A program made the position numbers and the translations under genes. Shown here piece by piece: positions 3,832 through 43,955 of a stretch of DNA of 64,000 bases. Below the pieces are notes generated by a model. That model was not told where the DNA came from. It made no database searches and saw only the letters and a list, made by a program, of their open reading frames with translations. Each line of letters opens with the position of its first letter. Position 1 is the first letter of the stretch. Location: positions 1-64,000 of the forward strand of contig NZ_JOJM01000019.1 in the NCBI RefSeq assembly GCF_000720325.1, given 5' to 3'. Source of the stretch: Streptomyces sp. NRRL B-1347 (GTDB lineage: Bacteria > Actinomycetota > Actinomycetes > Streptomycetales > Streptomycetaceae).

Positions 3832-4275
3832 TCAGTTGCAGAACGACGACCTGACGGCGGTCACGACCTGTCCGGCTTGCTCGTCGGTCAGGCTCGGCAC
3901 GGTGCCCCCCTCGTAGCGAAGCTTCGCGTTCGCTCGCACCGTGGCCGTGCCCTTGTCCGCCTTGATGTCCGAGCACACGTTGCGGGCCCGGTCCACGGCG
4001 CGGTCTTCCTTAGCGACCAGGCCGGGCTCGATGGTCCGCAGAGCGCGTATCAGCCTCGCTGTCTGTGCGGGGTCTGGCGAGGGGATGCCACCGCCCGCAG
4101 CGGGCTTAGATGGCTTCTCCTCGGGCTTGCTCTCCTTCTTCACGGACTCCGTGACGGACGGCTTGGGCTTGGCTTCCGCCTCGCTGCTGTCGTCGTCCTG
4201 GAACAGCGACCCCACAGCACCGATGACGAACAGCGCTGCACCGCCGATCACCCAGTTACGCGTCTTTCGCTTCAT
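3832..4275 (-). CDS. membrane-anchored small protein with Cys-containing C-terminal domain
   Basis: Predicted protein of 147 residues. A short positive N-terminus (MKRKTRN) precedes one hydrophobic segment (about 8-24), then an acidic and Lys/Pro-rich linker (about 25-65), then a conserved-looking C-terminal domain of about 75 residues with cysteines in RNVCSDI and at the penultimate position. This suggests an exported, membrane-tethered protein with a disulfide-stabilised outer domain. The ATG at 4275 has GGGGAGGG upstream; an in-frame ATG 10 codons earlier lacks a site. Leftmost gene of the prophage, followed by a terminator. Function unknown; a surface or superinfection role is possible but only a guess. 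Confidence 0.55.
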   Translation of the reverse strand: MKRKTRNWVIGGAALFVIGAVGSLFQDDDSSEAEAKPKPSVTESVKKESKPEEKPSKPAAGGGIPSPDPAQTARLIRALRTIEPGLVAKEDRAVDRARNVCSDIKADKGTATVRANAKLRYEGGTVPSLTDEQAGQVVTAVRSSFCN

Positions 4276-5150: not shown

Positions 5151-5399
5151 GTGGAATTCGACCCTCGGCGCCCGAAGTGGCAGCAGATCGCCGAAGTGAT
5201 CCGGCAACGCATCCGGACGGGTGTGTACGTGCCCGATTTTCAGCTCTCCGAAGTACGGTTGGCTGACGAGTTCGGCGTGAACCGGGACACCATGCGCAAG
5301 GCCACTCGGGCGCTCCGCGAAGAGGGTTGGATCACGACCACGCCGAACATGGGCAGTTTCGTTGCGGGAGTCCCCGAGGGCGAGCCCCAGACCGACTAG
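5151..5399 (+). CDS. short GntR-family winged helix-turn-helix regulator
   Basis: Protein of 82 residues consisting almost only of a GntR-type DNA-binding domain: KWQQIAEVIRQRIRTGVY, LSEVRLADEFGVNRDTMRKA and a wing ending GSFVAGV. No effector domain follows, as in stand-alone Streptomyces and phage GntR repressors. Start is GTG at 5151. It is the only rightward gene in this part of the left arm and faces the end of the lasso operon, so it may regulate either the left-end genes or the cargo. Confidence 0.8.
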   Translation: MEFDPRRPKWQQIAEVIRQRIRTGVYVPDFQLSEVRLADEFGVNRDTMRKATRALREEGWITTTPNMGSFVAGVPEGEPQTD

Positions 5400-5491
5400 C
5401 CCGCGTCGTCTGCGTCTCGGGCGAGGGAGCGGAGCCCCGCGCGCAGATCGGGGCACGGGGCGTACTCGTGGACGTCTACGGGGAGCGTCAG
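5396..5491 (-). CDS. possible 31-residue ORF coupled to the acetyltransferase gene
   Basis: Directly after the acetyltransferase stop (TGA at 5490-5488) lies an overlapping CTG (5491-5489) opening a frame of 31 codons, with the segment DVHEYAPCPDLRAGLRSLAR, which looks like the C-terminal end of short Streptomyces phage proteins. The CTGA overlap mirrors the GTGA overlaps used by the two genes upstream. CTG starts are rare and there is no Shine-Dalgarno, so it may instead be the remnant of a degraded gene. Confidence 0.3.
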   Translation of the reverse strand: MTLPVDVHEYAPCPDLRAGLRSLARDADDAG

Positions 5492-6054
5492 CCGCTGAGA
5501 GTTGGAGTCACTGCGGACGGTCCAGGGAAGTCCTCGGGCAACGCGTCCATCAACAGTTCGTCCACGGGCTTGCCAAGCCAGTACCCCGCCCCTCGGAGTC
5601 GACCTGACGGGCGGAACCCCGCCTTCTCGTACGCGGAGATTCCTGCCGCGTTGGGCTCCAGCACCTTCAGCCACACCATGCGCAGGTGGGCAAGGTGGAA
5701 CGCCCAATCGAGGGTCAGACGTGCCGCTTCCGTGGCGTACCCCTTACCCCGTGCGTCCGGGGCGAGAACCATCACGAACTCCGCCGTGCGGACGTACGTG
5801 TTGACTTCGAGGATTGTCATTCCCACGGGTGTGCTGTCGTTCAGCCTCACCACCTCGAACTGTTGGAAGCGATCGTTACCGCGCTGCCGTTCGTATCCGG
5901 CGGCGCGTACCTCCCACGACTGTGGCCACTGGTTGCCGTACCCCAGGATGGTCCGGGCGTCGTTCTCCCACTTGTGGTACTCGGGCAGCATGTCTTGTCG
6001 GGGCATCCCGAGGGCGAGCGTTTCGCCGCTCAGGAGGATGTGCGGTTCACTCAC
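5488..6054 (-). CDS. GNAT acetyltransferase of the lasso peptide cluster
   Basis: Protein of 188 residues of the RimJ/RimL-like GNAT family. It has a beta-strand pair around GMTILEVNTYV and the acetyl-CoA signature region EFVMVLAPDARGKGYATEAARLTLDWAF with the R/Q-x-x-G-x-G/A loop as RGKGYA. VWLKVLEPNAAGISAYEKAGF follows, the usual C-terminal GNAT motif. The GTG start at 6054 overlaps the stop of the lasso peptidase gene (GTGA), so it is translationally coupled to the cluster. In the albusnodin system a co-encoded acetyltransferase acetylates Lys10 of the lasso core; the predicted core here also has Lys at position 10. Acetylation of that lysine is therefore the likely reaction, with self-resistance as an alternative role. 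Confidence 0.85.
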   Translation of the reverse strand: MSEPHILLSGETLALGMPRQDMLPEYHKWENDARTILGYGNQWPQSWEVRAAGYERQRGNDRFQQFEVVRLNDSTPVGMTILEVNTYVRTAEFVMVLAPDARGKGYATEAARLTLDWAFHLAHLRMVWLKVLEPNAAGISAYEKAGFRPSGRLRGAGYWLGKPVDELLMDALPEDFPGPSAVTPTLSG

Positions 6055-6674
6055 GGTCGTACTCCTCTGGTGGCCCGTGCCGACCCGGGGCCGTCTGGTG
6101 TGTAGGTGGGGGTGTACAGGGCGGTGTCCGCCGGTTCCTCGACCGGAGCCCCGTCCGGGCCGGCTATCCAGGCGTGCAGCCGTACGGGGTCAAGGGCTAC
6201 CCCGTGTCGCCATTCAGCGCGGCGTCGAGTGACCGTCAGCAGCAGTGCGGCAGCCGTTGAGTCCTCTAGGCACGCCCACCGCATCGGCAAGAGCTGTGCG
6301 GCCCAGCGAACCGCGCGCACAGCGTAGCGAGCCTGAGACAACGTGGCCGGGGGTAAATCGCGCCCCAAGCACGCGAGCCGAATGAGTCGAGAGAACCGCT
6401 CGTGGTGCTTTCCAGCGGCCCATGTGACAGCGGTGGCGAGCACGACAGGTACAGCAGCGATGCGCCACCCCATCGGGATAGGGCCGGGCTCGGGCGGGAC
6501 CGTGGACTGTTCCACGGTCCCCCACGTTGGGACAGTGTCCGGAAGGGAAACGACGGTCGCGCCCATGGCGGTTACCGCGTCGGACGTGGGGCGTAGCTCG
6601 GTCGTGCCCGTGTCGTAGTCGATCACGACGGATACGTGAGAGGAACGGGCGACCACGGTGTTGGTTCGGCTCAC
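6051..6674 (-). CDS. lasso peptide leader peptidase (B protein, possible fused recognition element)
   Basis: Protein of 207 residues of the transglutaminase-like lasso B2 family, which cleaves the leader from the precursor. The catalytic Cys is in RWACLEDSTAA (Cys135) and the His in VRLHAWIAG (His167). It is followed by the conserved strand APVEEP and the YTPTYTP tail seen in Streptomyces homologues. Residues 5-40 (VVARSSHVSVVIDYDTGTTELRP...) resemble the start of a PqqD-like leader recognition domain, so B1 and B2 functions may be fused; no separate B1 gene is present. A hydrophobic segment lies at about 71-87. The GTG start at 6674 overlaps the cyclase stop (GTGA), and the stop overlaps the acetyltransferase start, so the three genes form one coupled unit. 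Confidence 0.85.
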   Translation of the reverse strand: MSRTNTVVARSSHVSVVIDYDTGTTELRPTSDAVTAMGATVVSLPDTVPTWGTVEQSTVPPEPGPIPMGWRIAAVPVVLATAVTWAAGKHHERFSRLIRLACLGRDLPPATLSQARYAVRAVRWAAQLLPMRWACLEDSTAAALLLTVTRRRAEWRHGVALDPVRLHAWIAGPDGAPVEEPADTALYTPTYTPDGPGSARATRGVRP

Positions 6675-8374
6675 CGTGCACCCGCCGGGGTTGGTGTGGT
6701 CTGCATCCATTCGGTTCCGGGCGCGCGCTCGATTGCCTCTAGCCACGCCTCGGCAGCGAGGGCGGACAGCAGTGGGGGCCAGATCGTCTCCGCGCCGAGG
6801 GCAGCCGCGTGAATCGTCGCTCGCAGCGGCGCGGGATTGACGAGCCCGAGGGCCGCTAGGCGCCCGTCCGCGAGGCCGAGCACGCGGCGCCGGTTCCTGC
6901 GTAGACCTAAGTGGAAGTCGCCGACCATGCGCCCTTTGGCGGCTCGTCTGCGGTGCGCGTCAGGTAGTAGATCGGCGAACGTGTCGGCGAGCATCGGCTT
7001 GTACCGTCGAGCCGAGTAGCGCTGTTTGACAGGGGCCGAGACCACCGCGTCCAAGACTGCCCCGTCGAAGTAGGGGTTGTGCAGCGCGAGGCCGAGCGCG
7101 TCCGCGAGTTGGATTTCTGCGTATGCCGACCGTGCCACCGTGTGCAGCCCGGCGGCTAACGCCATGTCCGCATCGGGGCCCGTGGGGACACTCACCTTCG
7201 GCACGGGCGCCGTGAGCCATTCGGGGCGGCCGGACTCCGACCGGCCGATGCGGGCGGCGTCTCCCCGAAGAGCGGCAGCGATCAACGGGCGGGGACTCTG
7301 CCGACGTAGCCGAGCCCAGTCCCGGGCGTCCCCGAGCAGCCGGAGCCAGTTCCCGCTACGGGCGAGGCTCGCCAGGTGCCCGGGGGTCGACAAGAACAGG
7401 TTGTCCCCTCCATCCCCGGTCAGGTGACAGACGGAGCCCGCGGCTGCCATCGCGCCGAGCTGGTCCGAGAACATCGACCACACCGCCGAGGACGGAGCCG
7501 GCTCGTCCGTCACGGGCAACGGCACGTCGGTCGCCGTGAATGGCAGATGCCGGATGTCGAGCGGGAAGGGTGCTCGGGTCAGACCCGGGACGGTCAGGGC
7601 TTGCGCGTACTGCATGTCTCCGCCGCTGGTGACGCCCGTCGGGTGCGCGGTCACACCCGTAACCGGCCCGTACTGTGCCGCGAGCAACGTCACGGTCGTT
7701 GAGTCCATGCCCGCAAGATCGGTGGTCGCGGACACTCCCTCGACCCGCACTCGCACGCCCTCGCCGAGCGCGTGCCGAAGCACTGCCGACGCATCACGTG
7801 CTGTGCGCCGTCTCGGCGACCACCAGCGGGTGAGCGACGAACCGCCCTCGGCGTCGAGGGCCAGCAGATGCCCGGCGGGAACCGGTGCGACCCCTGCCCA
7901 CGCGCTACGCCCCGTTGCGGGGCGGTGCTTGTCACGGAGGTACGCAGCGAGCCACCCGGTATCGACGCGCCCGCCGACGAGCGGGGCTAGCGCGAGGGAG
8001 CTAGACCCCCACACCGTTCCGTCCGGGGTGCTGACCGTGTAGAGGGGCGAGGCTGCCCCGGCGTCTGCGAGGACTTCCACACGGCGCCGCTCGGTCAGCC
8101 GAACAACAGTGTGCGAGCCCGCCCACGTCCGTGCGACCGTCGCAAGCCCGGGAGCCGACAGAGCACGGGCCATGTCGTGTTCGGTGGCCGAGCACGGGCC
8201 AAGCACGGCGATTCGCGCGCTGCCGAGTTCCACGGTCCGTACGTGCTCGGACAGCCAGTCTCCGCAGACCCATAACGCGGGGTCGCGCCAGAGCAGACGT
8301 GCACCCACGGGTGTTGCGGCGGGTCGGCCGCCGGGTGCGCTTCCGCCGTACCAGCGCGCTTTGCGTTCTTCCAT
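6671..8374 (-). CDS. lasso peptide macrolactam synthetase (asparagine synthetase-like C protein)
   Basis: Protein of 567 residues of the asparagine synthase family. The N-terminal half resembles a degenerate glutaminase domain without a usable N-terminal cysteine. The C-terminal half has the ATP-pyrophosphatase motif as DLAGMDSTT (about residue 220), slightly shorter than the usual SGGxDS, and a second conserved segment HLTGDGGDNLFLS. In lasso pathways it adenylates the side chain of an Asp or Glu in the core and closes the ring on the N-terminal amine. The ATG at 8374 has GGGAGAGG upstream. It follows the precursor gene by 80 nt containing small GC-rich hairpins, which could lower cyclase expression relative to precursor. 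Confidence 0.88.
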   Translation of the reverse strand: MEERKARWYGGSAPGGRPAATPVGARLLWRDPALWVCGDWLSEHVRTVELGSARIAVLGPCSATEHDMARALSAPGLATVARTWAGSHTVVRLTERRRVEVLADAGAASPLYTVSTPDGTVWGSSSLALAPLVGGRVDTGWLAAYLRDKHRPATGRSAWAGVAPVPAGHLLALDAEGGSSLTRWWSPRRRTARDASAVLRHALGEGVRVRVEGVSATTDLAGMDSTTVTLLAAQYGPVTGVTAHPTGVTSGGDMQYAQALTVPGLTRAPFPLDIRHLPFTATDVPLPVTDEPAPSSAVWSMFSDQLGAMAAAGSVCHLTGDGGDNLFLSTPGHLASLARSGNWLRLLGDARDWARLRRQSPRPLIAAALRGDAARIGRSESGRPEWLTAPVPKVSVPTGPDADMALAAGLHTVARSAYAEIQLADALGLALHNPYFDGAVLDAVVSAPVKQRYSARRYKPMLADTFADLLPDAHRRRAAKGRMVGDFHLGLRRNRRRVLGLADGRLAALGLVNPAPLRATIHAAALGAETIWPPLLSALAAEAWLEAIERAPGTEWMQTTPTPAGAR

Positions 8375-8454
8375 CTCGTCACCTCTCCCGCCGCTGACAC
8401 CGGGGGCGGCCCCCGTTGGGACTTTTCCCGCGGGGGGCTGCCCTTAGGGCTCGA

Positions 8455-8589
8455 TTAGTCGTACGGCGTCTGTTTCGCCTCGACTCCCGAGTTTTCACCG
8501 CCCCGCGTCAGCGTGGCAGCGTTGCCCAGAATGATGACCGGCGGAACGTCGAACTCTTCGGGCGTGTCCGTGGTGTGCTTGTGATCCAT
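8455..8589 (-). CDS. albusnodin-like lasso peptide precursor
   Basis: A 44-codon gene that standard callers can miss. The leader (1-29) matches the lasso recognition pattern Y/F-x-x-P-x-(L/V)-x-x-x-G...T-x as F13-DV-P16-P-V18-II-L-G22...T28-R29, with the obligatory Thr at -2. The predicted core (30-44) is GGENSGVEAKQTPYD: Gly1 can form a macrolactam with Glu8, leaving a seven-residue tail. Albusnodin (recalled as GQGGGQSEDKRRAYNC) shares Gly1, Glu8, Lys10 and Tyr14, and Lys10 is its acetylated residue. ATG 8589 has an excellent AAAGGAGG site. Cyclase, peptidase and acetyltransferase genes follow in order. Ring size and cleavage point are inferred. Confidence 0.85.
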   Translation of the reverse strand: MDHKHTTDTPEEFDVPPVIILGNAATLTRGGENSGVEAKQTPYD

Positions 8590-8674: not shown

Positions 8675-8923
8675 TCAGGTTCTTGCGCCCTCGGAGGGTG
8701 GCGTTACCTGGGGGCCGCGGACAGCCATCGCGGCAGTTCGGTCCCGGCGGGGAATGTCCCAGGCGTCGAGCTGGTCCGCGAGCCACTTTTCACCCACGTT
8801 CCCGAAGGAACGCGCCAGGGAAGCGGCGGACTCCCCTCCCAGGTACCTGGTGGTCACCTCTGAGCGGGCTGCGATCAACTTGTCTCGTGCCGCGCCGAGT
8901 TCGGCGCGAGAGCGTTTCGGCAT
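8675..8923 (-). CDS. small helix-turn-helix-like protein upstream of the lasso precursor
   Basis: Protein of 82 residues starting MPKRSRAELGAARDK. The middle (YLGGESAASLARSFGNVGEKWLADQL) has the spacing of a helix-turn-helix of the kind that follows a basic helix, and DAWDIPRRDRTAA resembles the recognition part of recombinase or small phage HTH proteins. The ATG at 8923 is preceded by GGAGAG. It reads in the same direction as the lasso operon and ends 85 nt before the precursor start, so it may regulate it or merely share its promoter. Identity beyond HTH-like is not established. Confidence 0.5.
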   Translation of the reverse strand: MPKRSRAELGAARDKLIAARSEVTTRYLGGESAASLARSFGNVGEKWLADQLDAWDIPRRDRTAAMAVRGPQVTPPSEGART

Positions 8924-9187: not shown

Positions 9188-9691
9188 TTACGCGGACGCC
9201 ATCTCTCCGGCCAGCAGCAAGGGCAGCCGGATGCCGTTCTCAGACGCACGCACCGCCATGCGCACCCGCGCCGCTTCGTAGCAGCGCGCGGCATCGTCCA
9301 GGAGCGAGAGGGGTACCCACCTCAAGCCGCTTAGGTCTCCCCGCGCGACGTCTTCGATTCCGACCGCCGACGCGTCCGCAGCGGAGAGAGTTCCGCCGTG
9401 GCACACAAAGCTGTAGCTCTCCGCGGCGTTCCCCTCCTTGGGCATCTGGTCCATGCCAAGGAAGTGCGAGATAGGCAGTGTCAGCCCGGTCACTTCCTTG
9501 ACCTCACGGGCCGCAGCGGCGGCAAGCGTCTCGCCCGGCTCCACCCACCGTTCCAACAGTTGCCACCCGAGCCGTTCCCCACGGTGCTTGTACGTCGGCT
9601 TGACCATCAGTACGTGCCCCTGGGGGTCCCGTACGAGGATCGTCACGCCGATGCGGCGGGGGTATGCCGCTGGATCAATGTCCGTGCCCAT
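9188..9691 (-). CDS. Nudix-fold protein with degenerate Nudix box
   Basis: Protein of 167 residues. An N-terminal strand pair (RRIGVTILVRDPQGHVLMVKP) and the helix REVKEVTGLTL identify the Nudix fold. In the box G-x5-E-x7-R-E-U-x-E-E-x-G-U the first Gly is Arg (ERWVEPGE) and the second metal-binding Glu of EE is Val (KEVTG), while E of PGE, R-E and the first Glu remain. Hydrolase activity may be reduced or changed. Start taken as ATG 9691, where AAAGGG lies upstream; an ATG six codons earlier lacks a site. Separated from the lasso operon by a terminator, so a link with it is not implied. Confidence 0.75.
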   Translation of the reverse strand: MGTDIDPAAYPRRIGVTILVRDPQGHVLMVKPTYKHRGERLGWQLLERWVEPGETLAAAAAREVKEVTGLTLPISHFLGMDQMPKEGNAAESYSFVCHGGTLSAADASAVGIEDVARGDLSGLRWVPLSLLDDAARCYEAARVRMAVRASENGIRLPLLLAGEMASA

Positions 9692-9767
9692 AGGAGATAT
9701 CCCTTTCATCTTGGGGTCCCGCCACCGGTCGGGGGCGCCCTCGCCGGCCCGTCCGGAAGCGGGAAGA

Positions 9768-10603: not shown

Positions 10604-11440
10604 TTGAATCGCAAGGAGTTGAATCCGGACTCGTCGCCCCAAGCGGCGTATGGGGCACGCCTACGCAGCTTGCGGGAGACACACGGCTGGACACAAGATG
10701 ATCTTGCAGCGCGTATGGGGTACTCCAGCGTGCATATTTCGGCGGTAGAAACTGGTCGGAAGCCTCCAACTCTCCGCTTCTCGCGGAGTGCGGATCGGGC
10801 TTTCGGCATTGAGGGCACCGCGGATACGTTCGAGCGTCAGCACCGCGAGATTGCGCACGGTGGCCTACTGGAGGGTTTCCCCGAGTACGTCAAGTACGAG
10901 GCTCGGGCCGTAGAGCTTCGGCTGTACGAAATCGGAATCGTTCCCGGCCTGTTGCAGACACCGCAATACGCGCGGGTTCTGGCCGATAGCGCCGTACGTC
11001 GTGGCGCCATCACGCCCGAACAGGCCGATGATCGCGTTGCGTTCCTGGCGGAGCGCCAGGCAGCTTTGGTCCGCGCCCGCCCTCCCATGATGTTCGTGGC
11101 CATGGACGAGAGCTGTATCCGCCGTACCGTCGGCGGGGCAGCCGTCATGGACGGCCAGCTAGCGCGCCTGGTCGAGTTCGCCGAGCTACCGAACACGCTC
11201 TTGCAGGTGGTGCCGTACGACATCGGCGAGCGTCGCACGTTTGACCTGCCCGTTAACCTCTTGACGCTGCCGGATCGATCCGTTCTCTGCTACGCGGAGT
11301 CTCAAGCGCAAGGCAACCTAGACCGAGAGAGCGCCTCCGTGGAGCCCATGTTGACGGCCTACCATCAGCTACAGGCCGAATCGCTGTCGCAGGCGGCATC
11401 TGTGGCCATGATCGAGCAGGTACGAAAGGGCAAATCGTGA
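10604..11440 (+). CDS. XRE helix-turn-helix regulator with DUF5753 domain
   Basis: Protein of about 278 residues. Residues 16-70 are an XRE/Cro-type HTH (GARLRSLRETHGWTQDDLAARMGYSSVHISAVE). The remainder is the DUF5753 domain, with the typical segments YEARAVELRLYEIGIVPGLL, YARVLA and LVEFAELPNTLLQVVPY. Start is TTG at 10604 or TTG at 10619, which has AAGGAG closer upstream. It is followed by a coupled DUF397 gene (GTGA overlap). In Streptomyces such pairs behave like regulator plus small partner and are often linked to development or to mobile elements. Here it is a candidate lysogeny regulator. Confidence 0.85.
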   Translation: MNRKELNPDSSPQAAYGARLRSLRETHGWTQDDLAARMGYSSVHISAVETGRKPPTLRFSRSADRAFGIEGTADTFERQHREIAHGGLLEGFPEYVKYEARAVELRLYEIGIVPGLLQTPQYARVLADSAVRRGAITPEQADDRVAFLAERQAALVRARPPMMFVAMDESCIRRTVGGAAVMDGQLARLVEFAELPNTLLQVVPYDIGERRTFDLPVNLLTLPDRSVLCYAESQAQGNLDRESASVEPMLTAYHQLQAESLSQAASVAMIEQVRKGKS

Positions 11441-11646
11441 CGACCGAATCCCCCCGCTGGTTCAAGTCTTCGTACAGCAACAACGGTGGCAACTGTGTAG
11501 AGGTTGCCGCCAACCTTGTCGTCACGAGCGGTATCGTCCCCGTCCGTGACTCCAAGCGCCCGAACGGCCCGGCCCTGAACTTCCCGGCCGCCGCATACTC
11601 TTCCTTCGTGTCAGGCGTCAAGGAAGGTTGGTTCGACAACACCTGA
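11437..11646 (+). CDS. DUF397 small partner protein
   Basis: Protein of 69 residues matching DUF397: WFKSSYSNNGGNCVEVA at the N-terminus, VPVRDSKRPNGPALNF in the middle and a C-terminal W-F. It is a standard partner of XRE-DUF5753 regulators in Streptomyces, where the pair can act in a toxin-antitoxin-like or anti-regulator manner. GTG start overlaps the upstream stop; a terminator follows at 11693. Confidence 0.85.
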   Translation: MTTESPRWFKSSYSNNGGNCVEVAANLVVTSGIVPVRDSKRPNGPALNFPAAAYSSFVSGVKEGWFDNT

Positions 11647-11692
11647 CCACTCGTCACGGCACCAACCGGAACTAGGCACACCATCACCAGAC

Positions 11693-11727
11693 GCCCCGCC
11701 ACTCCATCCCCTTCGGAGCGGCGGGGC
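11693..11727. terminator. terminator after the XRE/DUF397 pair
   Basis: GCCCCGCC(A)CTCC pairs with GGAG(C)GGCGGGGC around a short loop, 47 nt after the DUF397 stop and just before the convergent leftward gene ending at 11737, so it may serve both directions. Confidence 0.65.
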
Positions 11728-11736
11728 ACTCTGCTG

Positions 11737-11973
11737 TCAGACAGCGACACCAAAGGCCAGGGCCACGCCCCGAGCCCATCCGTCAGGCGGCCCCAACTCG
11801 GGTGTCCGGTCGGTCAGATAGACACCCCACGAGCTTGATCCCGGAACCCGGTGGGCGCTGACCCCGTATCTGCGCGTCATGCCCGAGCGGCGGAGTACCG
11901 AGGCAAGTCGGTGCATCTCGGCGGACGCACTCACCTGGTCCTCGCGGCCGAGGACGAACACGCGCGCGCTCAT
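11737..11973 (-). CDS. small protein of unknown function
   Basis: Predicted protein of 78 residues starting MSARVFVLGREDQVSASAEM. It has mixed alpha/beta character with VSAHRVPGSSSWGVYLTDR near the middle. Start ATG at 11973 overlaps the stop of the preceding gene (ATGA), so the two form a coupled pair. No recognised domain. Confidence 0.5.
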   Translation of the reverse strand: MSARVFVLGREDQVSASAEMHRLASVLRRSGMTRRYGVSAHRVPGSSSWGVYLTDRTPELGPPDGWARGVALAFGVAV

Positions 11974-12733: not shown

Positions 12734-13543
12734 TCACCATGCCCGAGCCCCTGCCTGGTACAGCTCGCGGAAACGTTTCTGCCCCTTGGCGCGCGCCTCG
12801 TGGACCTGCTTGGGGGTGACACCCATGTCCTCGGCTAGTTCAGTGTCAGGGCGGTCGCTGAAGTCGGCGACGGGGGCTATGCCGTAGCTCGCCTTGAGGA
12901 CGACGCGCTGTCGTTCCCCCAACAGCCCCAGCGTGCGGTGCACTTGCTCGTGCACGACCGTGCGCCTGGTGGTCTCGTAGTCGCGCGAGTCGAGTAGATC
13001 GACGGGAACCTCCGCAACGGCGGCAACTACGTCGCCGAGGGTCAATTCGTCGTCGTTCTCGTCCACGTCGTGCGGGCGGTCGAGCGAGTCCACACCGAGC
13101 CACGACAGCAATGCGGCGTACGCCCGATCCGGAGTCATCCTGCGAGGCCCCATTTCATCCGTGGTCGCGATCCGAGCCGCTGCGTACGGGTCACCGGAAG
13201 CGAGAGTGAGGGCGCTCGCAAAATCCTTCGTGGTCTGCGCGCTCACCCCAGGGTTAAGCGACTGTTGGCGAAGGTCACGCATGACGCTGTGCAACTCACG
13301 GTCTATGAATGCCATGAATTGCGCACCAGTCTCGCCGCTAAAGGCGGCAAGGCACTGCCAAACAGTTATCCGCCCCGCCTGGGTGAGGTCTTCTGCCAAG
13401 TGATGGTCGGTTCGGCTGGCTCCGGTTGCGTAGCTGCGGGCTCGCTGGGAAACAAACGTCTCGGTTTCTGCAATTACGGCCTGAACCGCATGAATGTTGT
13501 TTCCCTTTGCTGCCGAAATGATTTCTGCCGTAAGGTGCGTCAT
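12734..13543 (-). CDS. phage-encoded sigma-70-like factor
   Basis: Protein of 269 residues. The region DHHLAEDLTQAGRITVWQCLAAF...AFIDRELHSVMRDLR corresponds to sigma region 2. The C-terminal part (LLGERQRVVLKASYG...TELAEDMGVTPKQVHEARAKG) is a region 4 helix-turn-helix for -35 recognition. Between them is an acidic linker. ATG 13543 is preceded by GGAG at about 9 nt. Placed just after the DNA polymerase gene, it may direct middle or late transcription of the phage. Region 2 is divergent, so promoter preference cannot be predicted. Confidence 0.7.
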   Translation of the reverse strand: MTHLTAEIISAAKGNNIHAVQAVIAETETFVSQRARSYATGASRTDHHLAEDLTQAGRITVWQCLAAFSGETGAQFMAFIDRELHSVMRDLRQQSLNPGVSAQTTKDFASALTLASGDPYAAARIATTDEMGPRRMTPDRAYAALLSWLGVDSLDRPHDVDENDDELTLGDVVAAVAEVPVDLLDSRDYETTRRTVVHEQVHRTLGLLGERQRVVLKASYGIAPVADFSDRPDTELAEDMGVTPKQVHEARAKGQKRFRELYQAGARAW

Positions 13544-13672
13544 TGGGCATCGCTCCGTTGGTTTGGGGCTCTGCTCCCTGTGGGGAGCGGGGCTTGCCCG
13601 GAACGGAGCGCGCGGGACCAGAAAAGGCCCTGTGGCCCTAATGCAATGCGCCTTGAATAAGGGCACAAAAAT

Positions 13673-13700
13673 GCCCCGTCCCGGAATGGCAGGACGGGGC
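13673..13700. terminator. terminator upstream of sigma factor gene
   Basis: GCCCCGTCC and GGACGGGGC form a 9-bp stem with a 10-nt loop in the gap between the DNA polymerase and sigma genes; it would end leftward transcription from the replication block. Confidence 0.6.
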
Positions 13701-13827
13701 TTGCGCATTGCCTTATCGCTGCGTGGTCGATGAATTTAGGTTCGGACCACGGGGCCAGCAATGCTGTTATTCAGGTCATGCAATATCAAATAGGTGGATG
13801 TCGCTTAGAACGGGACTTAGCCGAGAC

Positions 13828-22146: not shown

Positions 22147-22190
22147 GGCTTCCCCCTCGGGGTTGCTGGGGTGGGGTAGAGGGGTGGCGG

Positions 22191-22250
22191 AGTGACGGTT
22201 CTACCTGTCTTTTTTGAAGAACAAGAAAAACCAAGAAAGAAGAGGGTTCG
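22191..22250 (+). repeat. dispersed imperfect repeat, copy A
   Basis: Begins AGTGACGGTTCTACC, continues CTTTTTTGAAGAACAAGAAA and ends CCAAGAAAGAAGAG. About three quarters of positions match, in inverted orientation, the copy at 42098-42157. It lies in the gap between the nuclease and dNMP kinase genes and is unusually A/G rich. In both copies the conserved GTG could start a short peptide (MTV..F.E..EK...KR), but its length and tail differ. Confidence 0.5.
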
Positions 22251-22281
22251 GGGTCACTTCCGCCACCGCGTCACGCTGTCG

Positions 22282-24141: not shown

Positions 24142-24414
24142 TCAGCCGGCTACCTTCGCCACGGTGAGACCCGCAGCAACTACGGTTGCCACAGCGGTAA
24201 TCAGAGCGACGGGCAAGACGAACTTGCCGCGCTCACCCTCAAGGCTCCGTATGCGCGTCTCATGGTCCTCTAGCGTCTCGTCCACGCTTTCCCCTTGCTG
24301 CCCGAGCGACCGCACGTCCTCGCGGAGCCCAACAACCTCGTCGTAGATCTCGCGGGCCCCGATTCGCACGCCTAGCGTCTCGTCCTGGTCGTGCATCCCG
24401 TCGCCCTCGCTCAC
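24142..24414 (-). CDS. small coiled-coil protein with C-terminal membrane helix
   Basis: Protein of 90 residues. The first two thirds form a charged helix with heptad-like spacing (EIYDEVVGLREDVRSLGQQG...ETLEDHETRIRSLEGERG), followed by one hydrophobic segment (KFVLPVALITAVATVVAAGLTVAKV). This is the XhlA/DUF2746-like layout seen near phage lysis genes. GTG 24414 overlaps the stop of the tail gene (GTGA); ATG 24417 is an alternative. Could assist holin function. Confidence 0.6.
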   Translation of the reverse strand: MSEGDGMHDQDETLGVRIGAREIYDEVVGLREDVRSLGQQGESVDETLEDHETRIRSLEGERGKFVLPVALITAVATVVAAGLTVAKVAG

Positions 24415-26684
24415 CATGGCGTCAAGGTCGGATCGGTGGGCCTGTCCGGGGTAAGTCCCGCATCCTTCGGAGGACCGTTGGCGGTCGTTCCGCGGAGTGT
24501 GAGGGTCTGCCGTATCTCTCCATTCTCCGCGGAGAGTTTGATGCCGATAACCCAGGCTAGGGTGTCCAGTTGGGCGCCCGTTGAGTCGACCACGCGCACG
24601 GCGTCGCCGAGTTCAATGCGCGGGTCCGGCAGGATCTCGACATCCCCGAGGAGCGGGATGGGGTAGGCGCCCGCGGATTTCAGGATCTCGGCTATACGCT
24701 GTGCAGGCTCTTCCTGCTGAATCCACCCCTGCGCGTCGTGCTCGTATTGCTGCACGCCGTAGTAACGCTGACTCGTCGCGTCCTGCGAGACCTCCCAATG
24801 ATCTGTTGGCGAGGCGCCGCTATCCATGGTTGGAGTCACCAGCGACAGGGACAAGCCGTTGAGCGCGTTGCCCCGTAGCCACACCGTTTCGCTACTGCGG
24901 TTGCGCATGGACAGGACGAGCTTCCCGTCCTCACGGTGAGTCCCTACTTCAACCGCCCCGTGCACAACGGGAGTTCTGCCGATCTGCGCCGAGCCGAACC
25001 GGATGGTGTCGGGTACCACGGTCTCCGCTGTTGCCGGGGGCGTGGTGTCGAGTTCATCGTTCCCGACCGTCCACGCAATGCTTCTCGTCTGCCCCGGGTT
25101 GATCTGAATGACGTTAATGGCCTCTTTGACGTTGGCCATGTTGGCCTTGACCCGATACCAGCTCGCCCACCGGACAGAGCAGTGATTCCGGCAAGCGTCA
25201 ATCTCCTCCGTCAGCGTGAGCGACGCTAGTTCTCGCTCGGACGTCACGGTAAGGTCGGGCTTTTCCGGCGGTGTCTGCCACCTCTCCGGGCCGCGCCACC
25301 GGAACACCCCCGCACTATCAAATTCAGCAGTCGAAAGAGTGGCCCGTGCTATCTGCGTGATCGCATCCCAAGCGCTTCCCGAAACCGCGGGCAGCATACG
25401 GACGGGAATCTTGGGCACATCAAGCGTCGCCGACTTGTCCCACATGCCTTCCTGCATCCGGGCGGCAACGGAACTCGGTTTAGCGGCCAGCTGTGAGAGT
25501 TGCAGCCCCTCCACCTGAATCGAGCTGATATCGATCGTCAGATCCGCCATAGCGCCAGGCGGAATGTCCATCGTCGGTATCGTCTTACGGCTGATCTCAA
25601 TGAGCGGGTCACGCGGGGACACCAGATGCCCCGTAATAGCCGCGGTTCCACCCGAGGAAACCGTGAGCCAGAAACCAAGATGCCACCGCCCGAAATCACT
25701 TTTGAGAGCGTCAACATAGGTCTCAACGGGGCCGTAGTCCTGCGGAGGGTTCAACTGCCGCCCCGAGTAGGTGACTGCCCCTTCCCGGAAGTCGACCTTA
25801 ATGTCCACGGTGTGCATGACACCCTTACCCGCATCCCAAGACAACGAGAACTTGATCGACGAGTCCACCGTGGCGGGAACCCGGGAAGGGTTCTTCGCCC
25901 ATATTTCCAGCCACAGCCCATCCGAGTGGTTCCGGTTGACCGGGCGCATCTGCGGGATGTACTTGGCCCACGTGCCACCTGTGCGGTTTCCGCTCGCCGA
26001 GCATTCCCACGGCGCATCCTTCTTGGACCACTTTTCCCAGTTGCCGCTCAGCGTCTTGAGGTAGCCGACGTTGGCGGCAGCCCCGCCGTGCATCGACGCG
26101 TACAGGATGCAGCCGGCCCGCGGGGGCGGAGCGGTGTGTACCCCGCTTCTCATCAACAGGTGGTCGACGCACCACACATCCGATGCAACCCAGTTGGTCG
26201 CGTCCCCGTAGGGGGTCGCGGGGTCAATGCCGCCCGCGGGGCGAGGGAGCTGTGCGGGCGTCCGCAGACGCTCGGCGCCGTCGAGGGCGGACAGCCTGAC
26301 CGTGTCTTCTCCCGACTGTGCCGAGCGAGACCGCACCGTTCCCCGGAAGGTGGGGAGCGTCCCCATTTCATGCGTGCCAAGTCCCCAGGAGTGGACGACC
26401 GACTGACGCGGCCGGGCCACGTCCCCGCTCGCGCGAGGGGCCCACGGCCCGTACAGCGCGGGGGCCGACGCACCCCCCTTGCCACTCAGCGCGATGTCCG
26501 CTTGGGCGCTGGCCGAGCCGCTGAATGCGCGCATGGCCTCCGGTAGGTCGGTGCTGTACGCACGGTCCAGCGCCCACGACTGCACCTGAGTGGACATGTC
26601 GTGCCCCCCGAGCCGAATCACGTGCGCGGCTATCCGCTCGCGTGCGGCGAGAGCTGCTGTCAGCGTCGCGTTGCCGGGCTTCAT
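24411..26684 (-). CDS. large minor tail protein (tail tip)
   Basis: Protein of 757 residues beginning MKPGNATLTAALAARERIAAHVIRLGG. It is beta-rich, without a clear catalytic motif, and follows the tape measure and distal tail genes in the standard siphovirus order. The C-terminal 200 residues (RIAEILKSAGAYPIPLLGDVEILPDPRIELGDAVRVVDSTG) resemble hub or tail-associated proteins. Its start overlaps the upstream stop (TGATG). Probably part of the adsorption apparatus. Confidence 0.7.
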   Translation of the reverse strand: MKPGNATLTAALAARERIAAHVIRLGGHDMSTQVQSWALDRAYSTDLPEAMRAFSGSASAQADIALSGKGGASAPALYGPWAPRASGDVARPRQSVVHSWGLGTHEMGTLPTFRGTVRSRSAQSGEDTVRLSALDGAERLRTPAQLPRPAGGIDPATPYGDATNWVASDVWCVDHLLMRSGVHTAPPPRAGCILYASMHGGAAANVGYLKTLSGNWEKWSKKDAPWECSASGNRTGGTWAKYIPQMRPVNRNHSDGLWLEIWAKNPSRVPATVDSSIKFSLSWDAGKGVMHTVDIKVDFREGAVTYSGRQLNPPQDYGPVETYVDALKSDFGRWHLGFWLTVSSGGTAAITGHLVSPRDPLIEISRKTIPTMDIPPGAMADLTIDISSIQVEGLQLSQLAAKPSSVAARMQEGMWDKSATLDVPKIPVRMLPAVSGSAWDAITQIARATLSTAEFDSAGVFRWRGPERWQTPPEKPDLTVTSERELASLTLTEEIDACRNHCSVRWASWYRVKANMANVKEAINVIQINPGQTRSIAWTVGNDELDTTPPATAETVVPDTIRFGSAQIGRTPVVHGAVEVGTHREDGKLVLSMRNRSSETVWLRGNALNGLSLSLVTPTMDSGASPTDHWEVSQDATSQRYYGVQQYEHDAQGWIQQEEPAQRIAEILKSAGAYPIPLLGDVEILPDPRIELGDAVRVVDSTGAQLDTLAWVIGIKLSAENGEIRQTLTLRGTTANGPPKDAGLTPDRPTDPTLTPW

Positions 26685-27520
26685 CAGGTCACCTCCACCA
26701 GGTCCAGGCTGATATCCCGGAACGCTCCGTCTCCGGCCGTAGCCGCGTGGCTGTAGCCCGTGATGCTGTAGGCGGGGGTCCCCTCGCCATACGGGCGCGC
26801 ACCAGCGACCAGGGCCGCGGACACGTCGCCGAGACAGAGCATGGATTGCCCCATCGGCCAATCACCCCCTCGCGTGCCATCGAACCTGACGGCAGGGCGC
26901 ACGTATGCCGCCTTTTCCGGTGCCGTGCGCACAATCGGAACCGCCACATTTGGCGTTGACGACGTGAAGAACAGCTTTCCTGACACGTCGTACCATTCCA
27001 TCCGCCACTGCACTACAGGGGCCCCAGATGCCAGAAGACCAGGCGCCCACCATGTGTAAACCATTCCCGGATGGGCGGGGTACCCCACCCAATTCGGATG
27101 CTGCCAATACAACTCCGGTCCGCCCTCGCCGACAGTGACGACGCCCACTCGATTTTCAACGTAGGGACTCCACACCCCGCCAAAGAGTGCAAGTTCCTTG
27201 GTGTAGGCCCATTTCGCAGGGTCGCCGAGCGCGAGTCCTTGAGACGACGACAGGACGTTTCGCGCGAGGGGGTCAATGACCGCTACCGGTCCGGCCTCAT
27301 CAATGCGACGGGCGAGCCGGTCCAAATGCACCACGTCGTCTCGCTCCATGGCCGACCACTCCAGGCGGAGCCGGCGAGGGCGGATGGGGGGTATCCACGT
27401 GGTGACACCCCCGCTGAGAGCCCGGAACTCCTTCACGCCGAGATCGGGCGAACGGTCGAACTTCACGGCGCCGTCAGTGACTTCGCGGAGCGCTCCGGGG
27501 CGTCCGATCCATAGCCCCAC
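26684..27520 (-). CDS. distal tail / minor tail protein
   Basis: Protein of 278 residues directly after the tape measure gene, the usual position of the distal tail (Dit-like) protein. The N-terminus (MGLWIGRPGALREV...DRSPDLGVKEFRALSGGVTTW) and a domain with repeated Trp/Tyr (WRMEWYDVSGKLFFTS) suggest a beta-sandwich. GTG start at 27520, 5 nt after the tape measure stop. Assignment is mainly positional. Confidence 0.65.
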   Translation of the reverse strand: MGLWIGRPGALREVTDGAVKFDRSPDLGVKEFRALSGGVTTWIPPIRPRRLRLEWSAMERDDVVHLDRLARRIDEAGPVAVIDPLARNVLSSSQGLALGDPAKWAYTKELALFGGVWSPYVENRVGVVTVGEGGPELYWQHPNWVGYPAHPGMVYTWWAPGLLASGAPVVQWRMEWYDVSGKLFFTSSTPNVAVPIVRTAPEKAAYVRPAVRFDGTRGGDWPMGQSMLCLGDVSAALVAGARPYGEGTPAYSITGYSHAATAGDGAFRDISLDLVEVT

Positions 27521-27524
27521 GTGC

Positions 27525-29915
27525 TCACCTCCTAGCTAGCTGACGCTGTCCGTACGCCACCGCGCGGGCAATCTCGGTCTCTCCGATGCGCACCACGATG
27601 TCCCGCCCCCGTTCGCGCTCCAGCGAGCGCAGCAGAGCATTGATGGCGCCCTCCCACGAGCCCGTTGATTGCGGCTGCACTACGGCAGCAGAGGCACGCA
27701 CAGGCCTCATTTCAGGCACGCGGACCATGGCTCGAAGGCGGGTGTCCAAGGTGCGCTGTTCGGCGTCGATACCTTCGACGACACCCGCAGGAATCCATCG
27801 GCCGATCTCATCGCGCATGAGCCGCGAGGGACTGTTGATCCCGAGGGCTTTAGCAATGGGACCGGGGATGATCTTCTTCGCCCACCCGGTGAGCTTGTCC
27901 TTAAGCCATCCTCCCAATTCGCGCACGCCATCCCAAATTCCGCGGACTAGGTCTCTTCCCTTGCCCACGAGTAGTTCTCGGAAGTCTCCGAGCTTCCGCC
28001 GGATACTGCGGGGAAGTCCGCCCATCCAGTCGACGAAATCGCCCACGCGCCGCTTGGAAGCACTCACGAACTCGCCGACACCACGAATCGCCGAGACAAA
28101 AGCTTGAGCAAGCTTGCCAACGATCCGGATCACGTCACCGATCCCGGAAAGAGCCACTCCGAGAGCCCAGATGAGCCCGGAGAATACAGGTCCGGCCAGC
28201 CGTACTATGACGGGTATGGCGGTGCCTAGAATCTCCGCTGCAAGTCGCCCGAGCCATTTAGCGACGGTCGACAAAGCCTGAATCAGGGGCTGCGAATCCT
28301 GAACGAGCTTCTGGAATTTCGCGCCTATGCTCCGCAGCGCAGGGGAAAAGTGCACAGAAATAAAATCTGCCACAGACGACAGGATCGGCCGCACGTTCTC
28401 GTACAGGGCGGTGTACACCGATATCGCCGCTGGCGCCACGGTGCCCGTGAGGATCTGTGCCAGGCCGGTAAAGGCTGGCCCCACCGTCCCGGATACTGCC
28501 GAGAACAGCCCGCGCACCGAAGGGGCAAGCTGCGTGGATATAACCGCCCAGACACCACGGGCAGCCGGAAGGAAAGACGTCGTGAAACGCTCGGACAGCG
28601 CGCCCACACTGGGGGACAGTTCATCTCGCGCTGAACTCGCAAGCCCCCGTACTTCCTGGCCGATGCCAGAAATCACCCCTCGGACCCCGCCCGAGGAGAA
28701 ATAACCGAAGAACCCCCCGACAACTCCCTTGGCCCGGTTGAACGCGGGCGCTACTACATCCGCGGCGGCGGAGCCGAGAGACAGCATCGGGGGAAGAACC
28801 TGATTCCCGATAAAGTTCGTGAGCTTGACTTCGGCGGTGCGCTTGAATTGCTCAATGCGTGCCCCGGCACCGCTGTGCAGTGCCTTGCCCATCTTGTCGG
28901 CAGCACCCGCGGTCTTGCCCAATGCCTTTACGGCATTGGTCGGGTCCATGGCATAAAGTGCCTTGCCGAGGTCTTCGCTTTGCGTGCCGAAAAGATTGAC
29001 CGCAGCCTGGTTCTGTTCAACCGGGTCTTTCATGGCCCGGAGCCGGTCAATGGTCAGATCCAGTGCCCCGGCAGCGGTCTTTCCCCCCTTTCCGAAACGG
29101 GCAGCCATGTCCTCGGCGTTGAGGCCGAGAGATTTGAATCCGTCCGCGGTGGTCTTGGAACCGTCCACCACACGGATGGAGAATTCCTTAAGCGCATCGG
29201 CCGCAACGTCGGAGTCGCGGGCGCCCGCTTGGACCATCTGTGAAATGAGCCCAAGTGATGTCTTTCCGTCCAGCCCCAGTTTCCTGAATTGAGTGGAGTA
29301 CTCATTCATCGTGTCCAACAGGTCGTCAGCCTTGTTGGAACCGTTCTGGAAACCGCGGGTCAGAACGTCAAAAGCCTCGTCCGCGGACTTGGCCATGCCG
29401 GTGCGGAGCATCTGCGAGACAGCCCGCGTGACCCCGCCTACGTCCTGGTCAAATACCTTCGCCAGGTTTCCGGCTTTGGAGGCAATGCTTTCAATCTGGT
29501 GGTTCGTGGCGTCCGGCGGAGCGATTCCGGCTTCCATGACGGAGCGGATGACGTTGGCCGCGTCCTGCACGTTGTCGGTGACCCCGTGCGCGTAAAGCTG
29601 CCCGGCGACCTCGCCGTAGCGCTTGGCGTCCTTCGGCGTGCTGCCGAGCTGTGCCTGAATCCGGTTGTTGATCGACTGCTGATCTAGCGCATTCTGGAAT
29701 CCCTTTACCAGCACCGCACCAGCGGCCACACCGATACCGGCCAGTCCTGCCTTAAGGACTCCGCCCATCTTGGACTTGAAACCCTCGCCGGCTGCCCCGC
29801 CCGCACCCTGCCCCGCCGCATCCGCGGGGCCGGTGACTTCCTGCTGTAGGCGCTGCCCAAACCCCTGCACTTCCGGGACCACGGACACATAGCCCACGCC
29901 GACCTCAACGGCCAT
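27525..29915 (-). CDS. tape measure protein
   Basis: Protein of 796 residues starting MAVEVGVGYVSVVPEVQGFGQRLQQEV, a common opening of actinophage tape measures. The N-terminal half is a PhageMin_Tail-like region (LGSTPKDAKRYGEVAGQLYAHGVTDNVQDAANVIRSV...AKVFDQDVGGVTRAVSQML). The central part has hydrophobic helices (VLVKGFQNAL, AEILGTAIPVIVRLAGPVFSGLIWALGVALSGIG). Length predicts a tail of roughly 115-120 nm by the usual 0.15 nm per residue rule. Overlaps the tail chaperone frame by 11 nt. Confidence 0.9.
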   Translation of the reverse strand: MAVEVGVGYVSVVPEVQGFGQRLQQEVTGPADAAGQGAGGAAGEGFKSKMGGVLKAGLAGIGVAAGAVLVKGFQNALDQQSINNRIQAQLGSTPKDAKRYGEVAGQLYAHGVTDNVQDAANVIRSVMEAGIAPPDATNHQIESIASKAGNLAKVFDQDVGGVTRAVSQMLRTGMAKSADEAFDVLTRGFQNGSNKADDLLDTMNEYSTQFRKLGLDGKTSLGLISQMVQAGARDSDVAADALKEFSIRVVDGSKTTADGFKSLGLNAEDMAARFGKGGKTAAGALDLTIDRLRAMKDPVEQNQAAVNLFGTQSEDLGKALYAMDPTNAVKALGKTAGAADKMGKALHSGAGARIEQFKRTAEVKLTNFIGNQVLPPMLSLGSAAADVVAPAFNRAKGVVGGFFGYFSSGGVRGVISGIGQEVRGLASSARDELSPSVGALSERFTTSFLPAARGVWAVISTQLAPSVRGLFSAVSGTVGPAFTGLAQILTGTVAPAAISVYTALYENVRPILSSVADFISVHFSPALRSIGAKFQKLVQDSQPLIQALSTVAKWLGRLAAEILGTAIPVIVRLAGPVFSGLIWALGVALSGIGDVIRIVGKLAQAFVSAIRGVGEFVSASKRRVGDFVDWMGGLPRSIRRKLGDFRELLVGKGRDLVRGIWDGVRELGGWLKDKLTGWAKKIIPGPIAKALGINSPSRLMRDEIGRWIPAGVVEGIDAEQRTLDTRLRAMVRVPEMRPVRASAAVVQPQSTGSWEGAINALLRSLERERGRDIVVRIGETEIARAVAYGQRQLARR

Positions 29916-39829: not shown

Positions 39830-40204
39830 TCAGGACCGGCGAGGCTGGACGCGCTCGGCAGCCCAACCGCCCGGCTGATGCTTCGCGGTCTCACGGTTGT
39901 GGCACGACGTGCACAGCGGACGCAGACGCGACCACGCGTCCGGATCGGCGACACCACGAGCCACCAGCGACCGACGCGACTCCGGGAAGTGATCCGCCAC
40001 GGTCGCGATGCGCGAGCACAGCACGCACCACGGATGCGCGTACAAGTAGCGGCGCCGGACGCTCTGCCAGCGGGTGTCATAGCCCCGCTCGGCTGTCGTG
40101 CCTCGCTGTTGCTGTGCCTCACGCTCGTGCTTCGGGCAGCGTCCCCCGCTCGTCAGCTCGGGACACCCGGGGATCGTGCAGGGGGTACGGGGCTTACGGG
40201 GCAC
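39830..40204 (-). CDS. HNH endonuclease
   Basis: Protein of 124 residues with CTIPGCPELTSGGRCPKH at the start and an HNH core: HPWCVLCSRIATVADHFPESRRSL...RPLCTSCHNRETAKH, with paired CxxC motifs and the catalytic His in ADHFP. Located next to the terminase genes, where HNH proteins can stimulate packaging cleavage. Confidence 0.85.
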   Translation of the reverse strand: MPRKPRTPCTIPGCPELTSGGRCPKHEREAQQQRGTTAERGYDTRWQSVRRRYLYAHPWCVLCSRIATVADHFPESRRSLVARGVADPDAWSRLRPLCTSCHNRETAKHQPGGWAAERVQPRRS

Positions 40205-42381: not shown

Positions 42382-43914
42382 CTACGCGGCTACCAGTGCC
42401 CGTGCGGGCTCGGCGGGGGCAGGATCGGGCTCGGGGTGCACCCGCACGGTGCTTGTGGCGGGCTCGGCGAGGGTGTGCACGGGCTCGGGCTCGGCGAGGC
42501 GTACCGCGCTGCCCGGAGCCGGGGGCGCGTCGTTGCGGGCTTCGGCTTCCGCATCCCCGGTGACGGTCGCAAGCTCGGCAATGGCGGGGTCCAGTTCTCC
42601 GGTGATGGTGAAGTCGACGCGGCGTGGGTCGAGCCGTCGCCATCCGCCCTTGCTGCCCGGCTTGACCATCAGGCGTGCTCCCGCGGCTATGAGCATGGCG
42701 CGCTGTGCCGCCGTGTCGGCGTCGTTCCAGTCGTCGGCGTACGTGCGCCCGGTGGGGACCACCTCTCGGCGAGGCTCGCGCTTCTCTCGGGATTCCAGCT
42801 CGGCCAACCGGGCGTCAAGGGCGTCTGCGCGACGCTGCCACTCGGCCTTCGCGGTCTTGGACTTCTGGCGTCCCTTGTCCTGCTGGTGCTCGGCGAACTC
42901 TGCTGCTGTCGCGTCTATCTCGGGCTGCGGGTCATAGCCCGGTATCTCGATGACGCGGTTGATCTGCACCTGACCGGCCGCCTTCAGGAACTGTTCGGTG
43001 ACGTACTCATCGACCCACTCAGCCCGCACTGTGCAGGGGGCGGGGCAGTGTGTCCCGTACTTGTACGACGAGCACCGGTAGGTACCGCTGGACCGGTTCA
43101 GGTACATCCGCTCGTCGCATCCGTTGCAGTGGATGACCCGCAGCAACAGCGCGGTGGAGTCGGTGCGCTCGGGCGCCTTCTCCGCCACGGGCTTGGGGGT
43201 GAGCAGTGCGGCAACCTGGTCGAACTCTTCGCGGCTGAAGATGGGGGATGTGGTGGCCATGACGGGGTTGCCCGCGTCGTCGCGCACGGGCTTGCCGCGG
43301 TGCATCTTCCAGCCCATGAGCGCGGGGTTGGCCAGCATCTTCTCGATGGTCTGCGCACGCCACTGCGCGGGCTTCTTCACGGGCTGGTCCGTGGCCACGG
43401 CGGTGCGCTTCTTGGTGCGCGCCTGGTAGGCAGTCCAGTGCGCGGACGGGGACAGCACGCCATCCGCGTTGAGGGCGCGCGCGATGGTGTGCAGTCCTCG
43501 GCCGTCCATCAGCTCGGCAATGATCCGCTCAATGATCTTCACCGCGTCCGGGTCGGGTACGAGGGTCCAGCCGATTCCGCCGTGCTCGGCGGGCATCTCG
43601 GCGGGCAGGTAGCCGTATGCGGGCTTGCCGCCGCCCCGCCAGCGAAGCGGCATCTTCCGCATGGCTGCCTGTGCCCCGGTGACGCGGTCCTTGATGCTCT
43701 GCGACTCGACCTGAGCGGCAAAGGCCAGCATGAGCATCATGAGTTCGCTCATGGGGTCCATGGGGTTGCGGAAGTCGAACGTCAGACGGCCCCCGCCGAT
43801 GCCCTCGGCGAACACGATGAGCTTGCGGTGTTCGCGGGCCCACTTGGCAAGCTCGTGCATGTCGCCCATGTCCCGGATGGCGCGGTCGAAGCGCCAGAAC
43901 ACCAGGGCGTCAAA
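42382..43914 (-). pseudogene. large serine integrase lacking the N-terminal catalytic region
   Basis: Homology begins abruptly at FDALVFWRFDRAIRDMGDMHELAKW, which in large serine recombinases lies near residue 90-110. Downstream come the rest of the catalytic domain (VFAEGIGGGRLTFDFRNPMDPMSELMMLMLAFAAQVES), the recombinase domain (MRKMPLRWRGGGKPAYGYLP, LANPALMGWKMHRGKP), the zinc ribbon (CNGCDERMYLN...YRCSSY) and the coiled-coil segment. The frame stays open to 43992 but encodes Gly-rich low-complexity residues without the R-x-S nucleophile motif. No piece of the missing domain is found elsewhere. The gene stops being phage-like at the cobL junction, so a deletion across attR is the simplest explanation. 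Confidence 0.8.
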
Positions 43915-43955
43915 GAGTGCGCCTCCGTTGCCCCCGAGTGCCGAGGTACCGCTCA

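Follow-up and report, generated by a model that had tools for sequence, protein, structure and literature searches.

The window analysed here is a stretch of 64,000 nucleotides, bases 1-64000 of one contig (NZ_JOJM01000019.1) in the genome assembly of Streptomyces sp. NRRL B-1347 (10.2 Mb, 362 contigs). Towards its left end it holds a four-gene lasso peptide operon, which is very probably an albusnodin-type (ACBT) operon carried as cargo in a Rowa-like prophage, its product being a predicted 15-residue lasso peptide likely acetylated on Lys10. Judged from its gene content, the operon is of the acetylated lasso (ACBT) type, having a GNAT acetyltransferase gene and a Lys10 in the predicted core. 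The same kind of operon is present inside at least two other Streptomyces prophages that, to judge from their flanking genes, were separately inserted. Its occurrence in several separately inserted prophages suggests that phages likely help to spread the albusnodin-type operon family.

The operon occupies 5488-8589 on the minus strand, and each gene is a single open frame with one stop. The lasso precursor (8455-8589, 44 aa) is followed by an Asn-synthetase-like lasso cyclase (6671-8374, 567 aa), a lasso B protein, or peptidase (6051-6674, 207 aa), and the GNAT acetyltransferase (5488-6054, 188 aa); this is the ACBT order of the albusnodin cluster. Precursor and cyclase genes are separated by a gap of 80 nt, and the cyclase/peptidase and peptidase/GNAT pairs overlap by 4 nt each. 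AAAGGAGG lies immediately 5' of the precursor gene. A promoter scan found zero sites with 0.4 expected, and the RNA fold in the precursor-cyclase gap was not convincing (z-score -1.58). An earlier note on this DNA had placed the four genes at these positions on the minus strand, and all of them were confirmed as intact, coupled frames; the interval that it gave for the cluster, 5396..8589, contains the genes but starts 92 bp below the last of them (5488).

Lasso precursors have Thr at leader position -2, Gly1 at the start of the core and Glu or Asp at positions 7-9. The window precursor has all three, through a leader ending in LTR directly before the first G of the core and through Glu8. The core, GGENSGVEAKQTPYD, contains the Gly1, Glu8, Lys10 and Tyr14 that had been reported from the first inspection, and a ring between Gly1 and Glu8 and an acetyl group on Lys10 are predicted. 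Curated models likewise bear out the identities first given to the three enzymes. The cyclase scores 611.8 bits against NF033561, the albusnodin/ikarugamycin macrolactam cyclase model (cut-off 300), and 64.5 bits against PF00733; the B protein scores 71.1 bits against NF033537 (cut-off 33) and 61.4 against PF13471 (cut-off 26); and the GNAT scores 61.2 bits against PF13302 (cut-off 25.4). Compared with four relatives, the three enzymes of the window have a ratio of nonsynonymous to synonymous substitution rates (dN/dS) of 0.11-0.29 and are under purifying selection. Because these values are low and the same gene set recurs at many loci, the operon is more than a chance assembly.

What identifies the surrounding DNA as a prophage? 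The element spans approximately 40.2 kb (3740-43913), and its genes for terminase, portal, capsid, tail and replication are arranged as in a phage, here a Rowa-like siphovirus. The replication, lysis, tail, head and terminase genes (14027-39725, minus strand) follow the order of phage Rowa, and collinearity with Rowa runs from an HNH gene (39854-40204) to a phage sigma factor gene (12734-13708, minus strand). Genes identified through PHROGs are those for the sigma factor, polymerase, primase, resolvase, methyltransferase, exonuclease, deoxynucleoside monophosphate (dNMP) kinase, endolysin, tape measure, tail chaperone, major tail, major head, protease, portal, terminase and integrase. In the tail region, two open reading frames (ORFs), 24411-26861 and 26684-27520, matched neither PHROGs nor Pfam. 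The terminase large subunit is 84% identical to that of Rowa, the portal 64%, the primase 66% and the polymerase 59%. With tblastn at 1e-3, 21 of the 61 Rowa proteins and 24 of the 57 Nesbitt proteins (both sets annotation-derived) have hits in the window; the repressors and integrases of the two phages gave no match there.

Phage genes lie on both sides of the operon, with the sigma factor gene to its right and a gp51-like gene to its left. The latter, a DUF732 gene at 3832-4275 on the minus strand, has as part-length homologues the gp51 of Streptomyces phages Heather and Euratis (the likeness covers 56% of its length), where gp51 sits between polymerase and integrase; phage DNA thus continues beyond the operon. 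The base composition of the operon is also phage-like: its GC content, 68.9%, is closer to that of five other segments of the prophage (64.7-67.9%) than to that of the flanks (74.5-75.2%), and third-position GC is 0.75-0.79 in the operon enzymes versus 0.93 and 0.98 in two flanking genes.

A prophage of the same replication lineage is found in Streptomyces sp. AV19 (polymerase and primase 79%, exonuclease 92% identical to those of the window). It carries the operon between the sigma factor and gp51-like genes, with a cyclase 77% and a GNAT 84% identical to those of the window, and has an integrase frame of 603 aa. The AV19 prophage sits between sixA and serB (these names, like cobL, aceE, cobN and the I36-type inhibitor, were read from translated sequence and not from assigned matches). 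These two genes adjoin each other at 22 of 24 other fetched loci, 30 other genomes having been searched and 24 having given the locus. An 8-mer that recurs at a distance of 40.6 kb is a weak candidate for the attachment (att) repeat of this prophage. Together, the synteny with Rowa, the phage genes on both sides, the base composition and the AV19 arrangement between genes that are adjacent elsewhere uphold the proposal that the cluster is prophage-borne.

Streptomyces sp. CB02959 has the operon in a different prophage, which encodes another integrase (551 aa) and in which the operon is located downstream of the phage lysis genes. This prophage interrupts an I36-type gene next to aceE; 11 of the 29 other loci that were fetched have this gene whole. 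In CB02959 its two parts are ~41.2 kb apart, and the GNAT end of the operon lies ~150 bp inside the insertion. TGGGT was seen by eye at both edges where the alignment breaks, although five bases alone are weak. The structural genes of the AV19 prophage resemble those of CB02959 (~31-62% identity), so the two phages are mosaics and not fully independent. Strain MspMP-M5 likely has a CB02959-type prophage, the putative parts of which are on two contigs (L153 and L081), one with the operon. In S. odonnellii, a single short contig (L074 2518-12887) bears the operon together with two HNH matches and an integrase (61%), without a terminase; this element is likely a prophage remnant, or else a small integrating island.

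The edges of the window prophage are less regular. On the left, likeness to the left end of the AV19 prophage suggests an edge near 3740. On the right, the serine integrase gene (42382-43914, minus strand) is ~107 N-terminal residues short in comparison with that of AV19, the match starting no earlier than residue 108 of 603 and reaching base 43914; its Pfam Resolvase domain match begins at profile position 69 of 145. The nearest phage integrases are those of Lilbooboo, Vash, Euratis and Samora (50-52% identity). The truncation was not seen in the earlier note. From ~43914 on, the window aligns with the DNA of relatives upstream of cobL, 43914-45242 adjoining the cut in the integrase. A search of the same genome with the corresponding AV19 part found no integrase N-terminus (the search had no positive control), and no att repeat was found for the window prophage. 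As for the empty site, the relatives align only from ~43914, and the left-flank proteins were unmatched in the loci of 13 fetched relatives. The right junction looks like a deletion that took the integrase N-terminus together with the right attachment site, and that may have removed chromosomal DNA too; alternatively, it may be a contig misjoin. With its integrase truncated, the prophage is probably trapped and probably unable to excise alone.

How constant is the core within the operon family? A profile of five cyclases was searched against one genome per species, and the best 80 of 82 relatives gave 78 distinct loci. Precursors were sought upstream of the cyclase at 67 of these loci and in the window, 68 in all, with a pattern that demanded G1 and E/D at position 8; at two loci with two candidate cores, the script preferred the Lys10 candidate. 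A core was recovered at 60 of the 68 loci (50 distinct cores). K10 and Y14 are present in all 60, position 8 is E in 59 and D in one, and a second Lys occurs in three. As the pattern fixed G1 and E/D8, K10 and Y14 are the only free tests. The eight loci where this search gave no core are L078 and L106, which lie at contig edges, and L123, L124, L125, L127, L133 and L139. GQGGGQSEDKRRAYNC, which we take to be the albusnodin core, is encoded at several of the fetched loci, G015 among them. Fifty distinct cores that all keep Lys10 are a resource for finding the role of albusnodin-type acetylation.

The acetyltransferase gene accompanies these cores closely. A K10 core was found at 59 loci other than the window, 56 of which have at least 1.5 kb downstream, and the script found a GNAT at 55 of the 56; at the remaining one, L110, a GNAT at 11411-11953 had been dropped by the distance filter. 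Ten loci with room gave no GNAT (L112, L139, L141-L144 and L146-L149), L139 being the only one of them that was core-searched. Position and linkage to Lys10 cores suggest that the window GNAT is AlbT-like. The protein-database search that the earlier note had called for gave 388 proteins among 690 candidates for the GNAT, the best other protein being 87% identical; for the precursor it returned only the window's own protein, from one candidate, as limited by the short-word rule, and the relatives were found from DNA instead. In a survey of the genus, in which three candidates were scored per genome, the cyclase exceeded the cut-off in 36 of 392 genomes, and 18 loci, the window included, reached at least 590 bits.

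Lasso B2 peptidases are Cys proteases with a Cys-His-Asp triad. The B protein of the window has an N-terminal beta-rich part and a C-terminal peptidase part, and its Cys135, Asp162 and His167, presumably the catalytic residues, are invariant in 27 of 27 aligned B proteins, so it fits a peptidase. The predicted structure (mean pLDDT 85.7) has short N-terminal strands followed by a helical part, and the N-terminus is possibly a reduced RiPP recognition element (RRE), the leader-binding domain. RRE models matched none of the seven window proteins scanned, and fold and sequence searches of the PDB with the B protein gave no match at E 0.001.

A route to the product can be proposed by analogy with albusnodin, as described in passages of PMC9266682 and PMC8498205, and with lasso enzymes in general. 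The B protein would bind the leader and cut after LTR; the GNAT would acetylate the Lys10 side chain, probably while the precursor is still linear, in line with the proposal made for albusnodin; and the cyclase would activate Glu8 with ATP and join it to Gly1. The expected product is an 8-residue ring threaded by the tail, with a predicted [M+H]+ of 1575.692. The lysogen would then make the peptide and draw a benefit of some kind from it, which would favour retention of the prophage. Such a benefit would be the most likely reason why the operon has been kept.

Is phage carriage common in this operon family? A hallmark search with 191 queries from 13 phage or prophage sources covered the fetched flanks, some of them short, of the 78 loci, and found a phage hallmark at three (L073, L074 and L097, the last being CB02959). 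Among the 16 genomes of the genus with the cluster (17 loci), CB02959 is the only one with a terminase or portal hit close to it. Several results weigh against the reading of the operon as phage cargo of albusnodin type. At the other 75 loci the flanks that were fetched are free of phage hallmarks, which indicates that the operon family is neither phage-specific nor a phage invention, and the nearest cyclases (82-84% identical) belong to loci of this kind. No relative of the cyclase was found in 50,697 phage records, nor in viral_contigs by peptide patterns; among 72,556 plasmid records, a distant relative turned up in 8. The integrase of the window prophage is truncated and not full-length, the terminase large subunit of AV19 is split over two frames (L152 5672-7307), and the terminase match of CB02959 (L154 region) has a stop in its N-terminal piece. 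The latter two prophages may therefore be defective, with sequence error as another possible cause of the breaks. A two-motif scan for ATP-binding cassette (ABC) transporters found no exporter in the first 14,000 positions of the window, nor within a distance of 4 kb at any of 36 loci (L072-L107, some contig-cut). The precursor scores 29.4 bits against NF033525 (albusnodin family peptide), its sole model match and 0.6 below the cut-off of 30; eight of eight sibling precursors pass, at 34.6-40.6 bits. The label albusnodin-like is nevertheless supported by the cyclase model, the ACBT order and Lys10. The earlier note had also considered that homologous clusters might all lie outside prophages and that this one might be a chromosomal insert; 75 of the 78 homologous loci do lack a phage hallmark, but the window cluster is not merely an insert of this kind.

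A tree of the cyclases (64 rows: 67 loci plus the window, minus L078, L106, L110 and L113) groups the window with L072, L079 and L084, which have no phage hallmark, and places AV19 as sister to these four (100/91), with CB02959 and MspMP-M5 in a separate group. The operon thus passes between phages and chromosomes, with either direction compatible with the tree. A less likely reading is that the operon is a decaying passenger, a chromosomal lasso cluster that was caught by trapped prophages and serves no purpose for the phage. The truncated integrase, the broken terminase genes, the hallmark-free loci of the closest cyclase relatives and the rarity of hallmarks are all in keeping with such a history. 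However, all four window genes are intact, with the three enzymes under purifying selection, the AV19 prophage holds the operon at the same position with a 603-aa integrase frame, and the CB02959 prophage carries it at another site. That the cluster lies beside the prophage and not inside, the left phage edge falling to the right of the operon, is highly improbable. The left att site of the window is not resolved by a repeat, but the phage-type gene at 3832-4275 lies to the left of the operon, the DNA near 3740 resembles the left end of AV19, and the operon is within a bracketed insertion in both AV19 and CB02959.

The role of the GNAT bears on a further alternative, in which the active peptide is unacetylated and the enzyme serves self-protection and not obligate tailoring. 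Lys acetylation is described as self-resistance for triculamin and lariocidin in passages of a 2026 review (PMC13352647), and was proposed as such for lariocidin in PMC11451635. This alternative appears unlikely for the window operon: in the albusnodin accounts, as far as passages of PMC9266682 and PMC8498205 go, removal of the acetyltransferase gene left neither albusnodin nor its unacetylated form to be seen; Lys10 is present in every recovered core; and the lariocidin cluster has an ABC exporter (passages of PMC11451635), whereas the motif scan found none here. The preferred reading, an albusnodin-type operon as prophage cargo, could be extended to propose that temperate Streptomyces phages use the operon as a mobile moron: it would have entered phages time and again, at cargo sites close to the attachment site, and would be brought to new hosts by virions, with the lysogen armed and the GNAT as antidote. 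This extension is speculative and rather doubtful; if true, loss of the prophage, or an encounter with a rival strain, would carry a cost. The prophages of AV19 and CB02959, with bracketed insertions and full-length integrase frames, make phage carriage, spread and lysogen benefit directly testable, once their terminase genes have been checked.

Several smaller genes accompany the operon. A GntR-type helix-turn-helix (HTH) gene (5151-5399, plus strand) has a 41% identical counterpart in the same position of the AV19 prophage. An 82-aa ORF upstream of the precursor (8675-8923, minus strand) is 73% identical to an ORF that adjoins the cluster in strain A1277 (L084). A Nudix hydrolase gene (9188-9709, minus strand) lies between the operon and an HTH/DUF397 pair, which consists of an HTH and DUF5753 regulator (10604-11440, plus strand) and its DUF397 partner (11437-11646, plus strand). 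Copies of the regulator that are 62-66% identical, likewise with DUF397 partners, stand beside clusters L072, L075 and L084, so that the pair adjoins the operon in the prophage as well as where no phage hallmark was seen; it is a possible regulator and may travel with the operon. The GntR, Nudix and HTH/DUF397 genes had suggested an integrative conjugative element, a reading rejected because the terminase, portal, capsid and tail genes follow the order of a phage. A role in anti-phage defence found no support, as a PADLOC scan of ten proteins (the three operon enzymes and seven neighbours) matched only the HTH gene, mostly in its HTH part. Elsewhere in the prophage, the tape measure gene (27525-29915) is one open frame of 796 aa, compared with 1033 and 1045 in Rowa and Nesbitt. 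The dNMP kinase and exonuclease genes are ~130 bp apart in the window (22147-22281) and in AV19, and a repressor gene lies between them in Rowa, Nesbitt, Euratis and phiC31.

How does the window operon compare with known systems? It shares with albusnodin the A-C-B-T order and a core with G1, E8, K10 and Y14, if the albusnodin core is as we take it to be; it differs at most other core positions and in being carried by a prophage, and the cyclases at G015 and at G155 are ~35% identical to its own. In passages of PMC8498205, the albusnodin cluster of Streptomyces albus DSM 41398 has the ACBT order with the GNAT last, and the lack of an ABC transporter in the scan agrees with that organisation. 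Phages Rowa, Nesbitt and Euratis have a similar gene order, yet no cyclase occurs in the phage records searched. A search of open-licence PMC papers, in listings and passages, brought up no description of a prophage-borne lasso cluster, in line with the earlier note, and the passages of PMC12874462, PMC8371330 and PMC12889140 contain none. Small clusters of the class of ribosomally synthesized and post-translationally modified peptides (RiPPs) are reported in actinobacterial prophages, biosynthetic gene clusters being found in 13 of 2112 analysed genomes (passages of PMC10023795); class I lanthipeptides and type III polyketide synthases are named there, and the word lasso is absent from the main text. 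The marine lasso family RF27583 is linked to phage and defence by correlation and is host-encoded near transposons and defence genes, with no prophage location in the passages of PMC11118758. The lasso clusters of Pseudonocardia (passages of PMC9903846) are also on a mobile element, but on plasmids and not in a prophage; cyclases in plasmid records of Pseudonocardia are annotated as albusnodin/ikarugamycin family and are 34-35% identical to that of the window. Lasso clusters are already known on chromosomes and plasmids.

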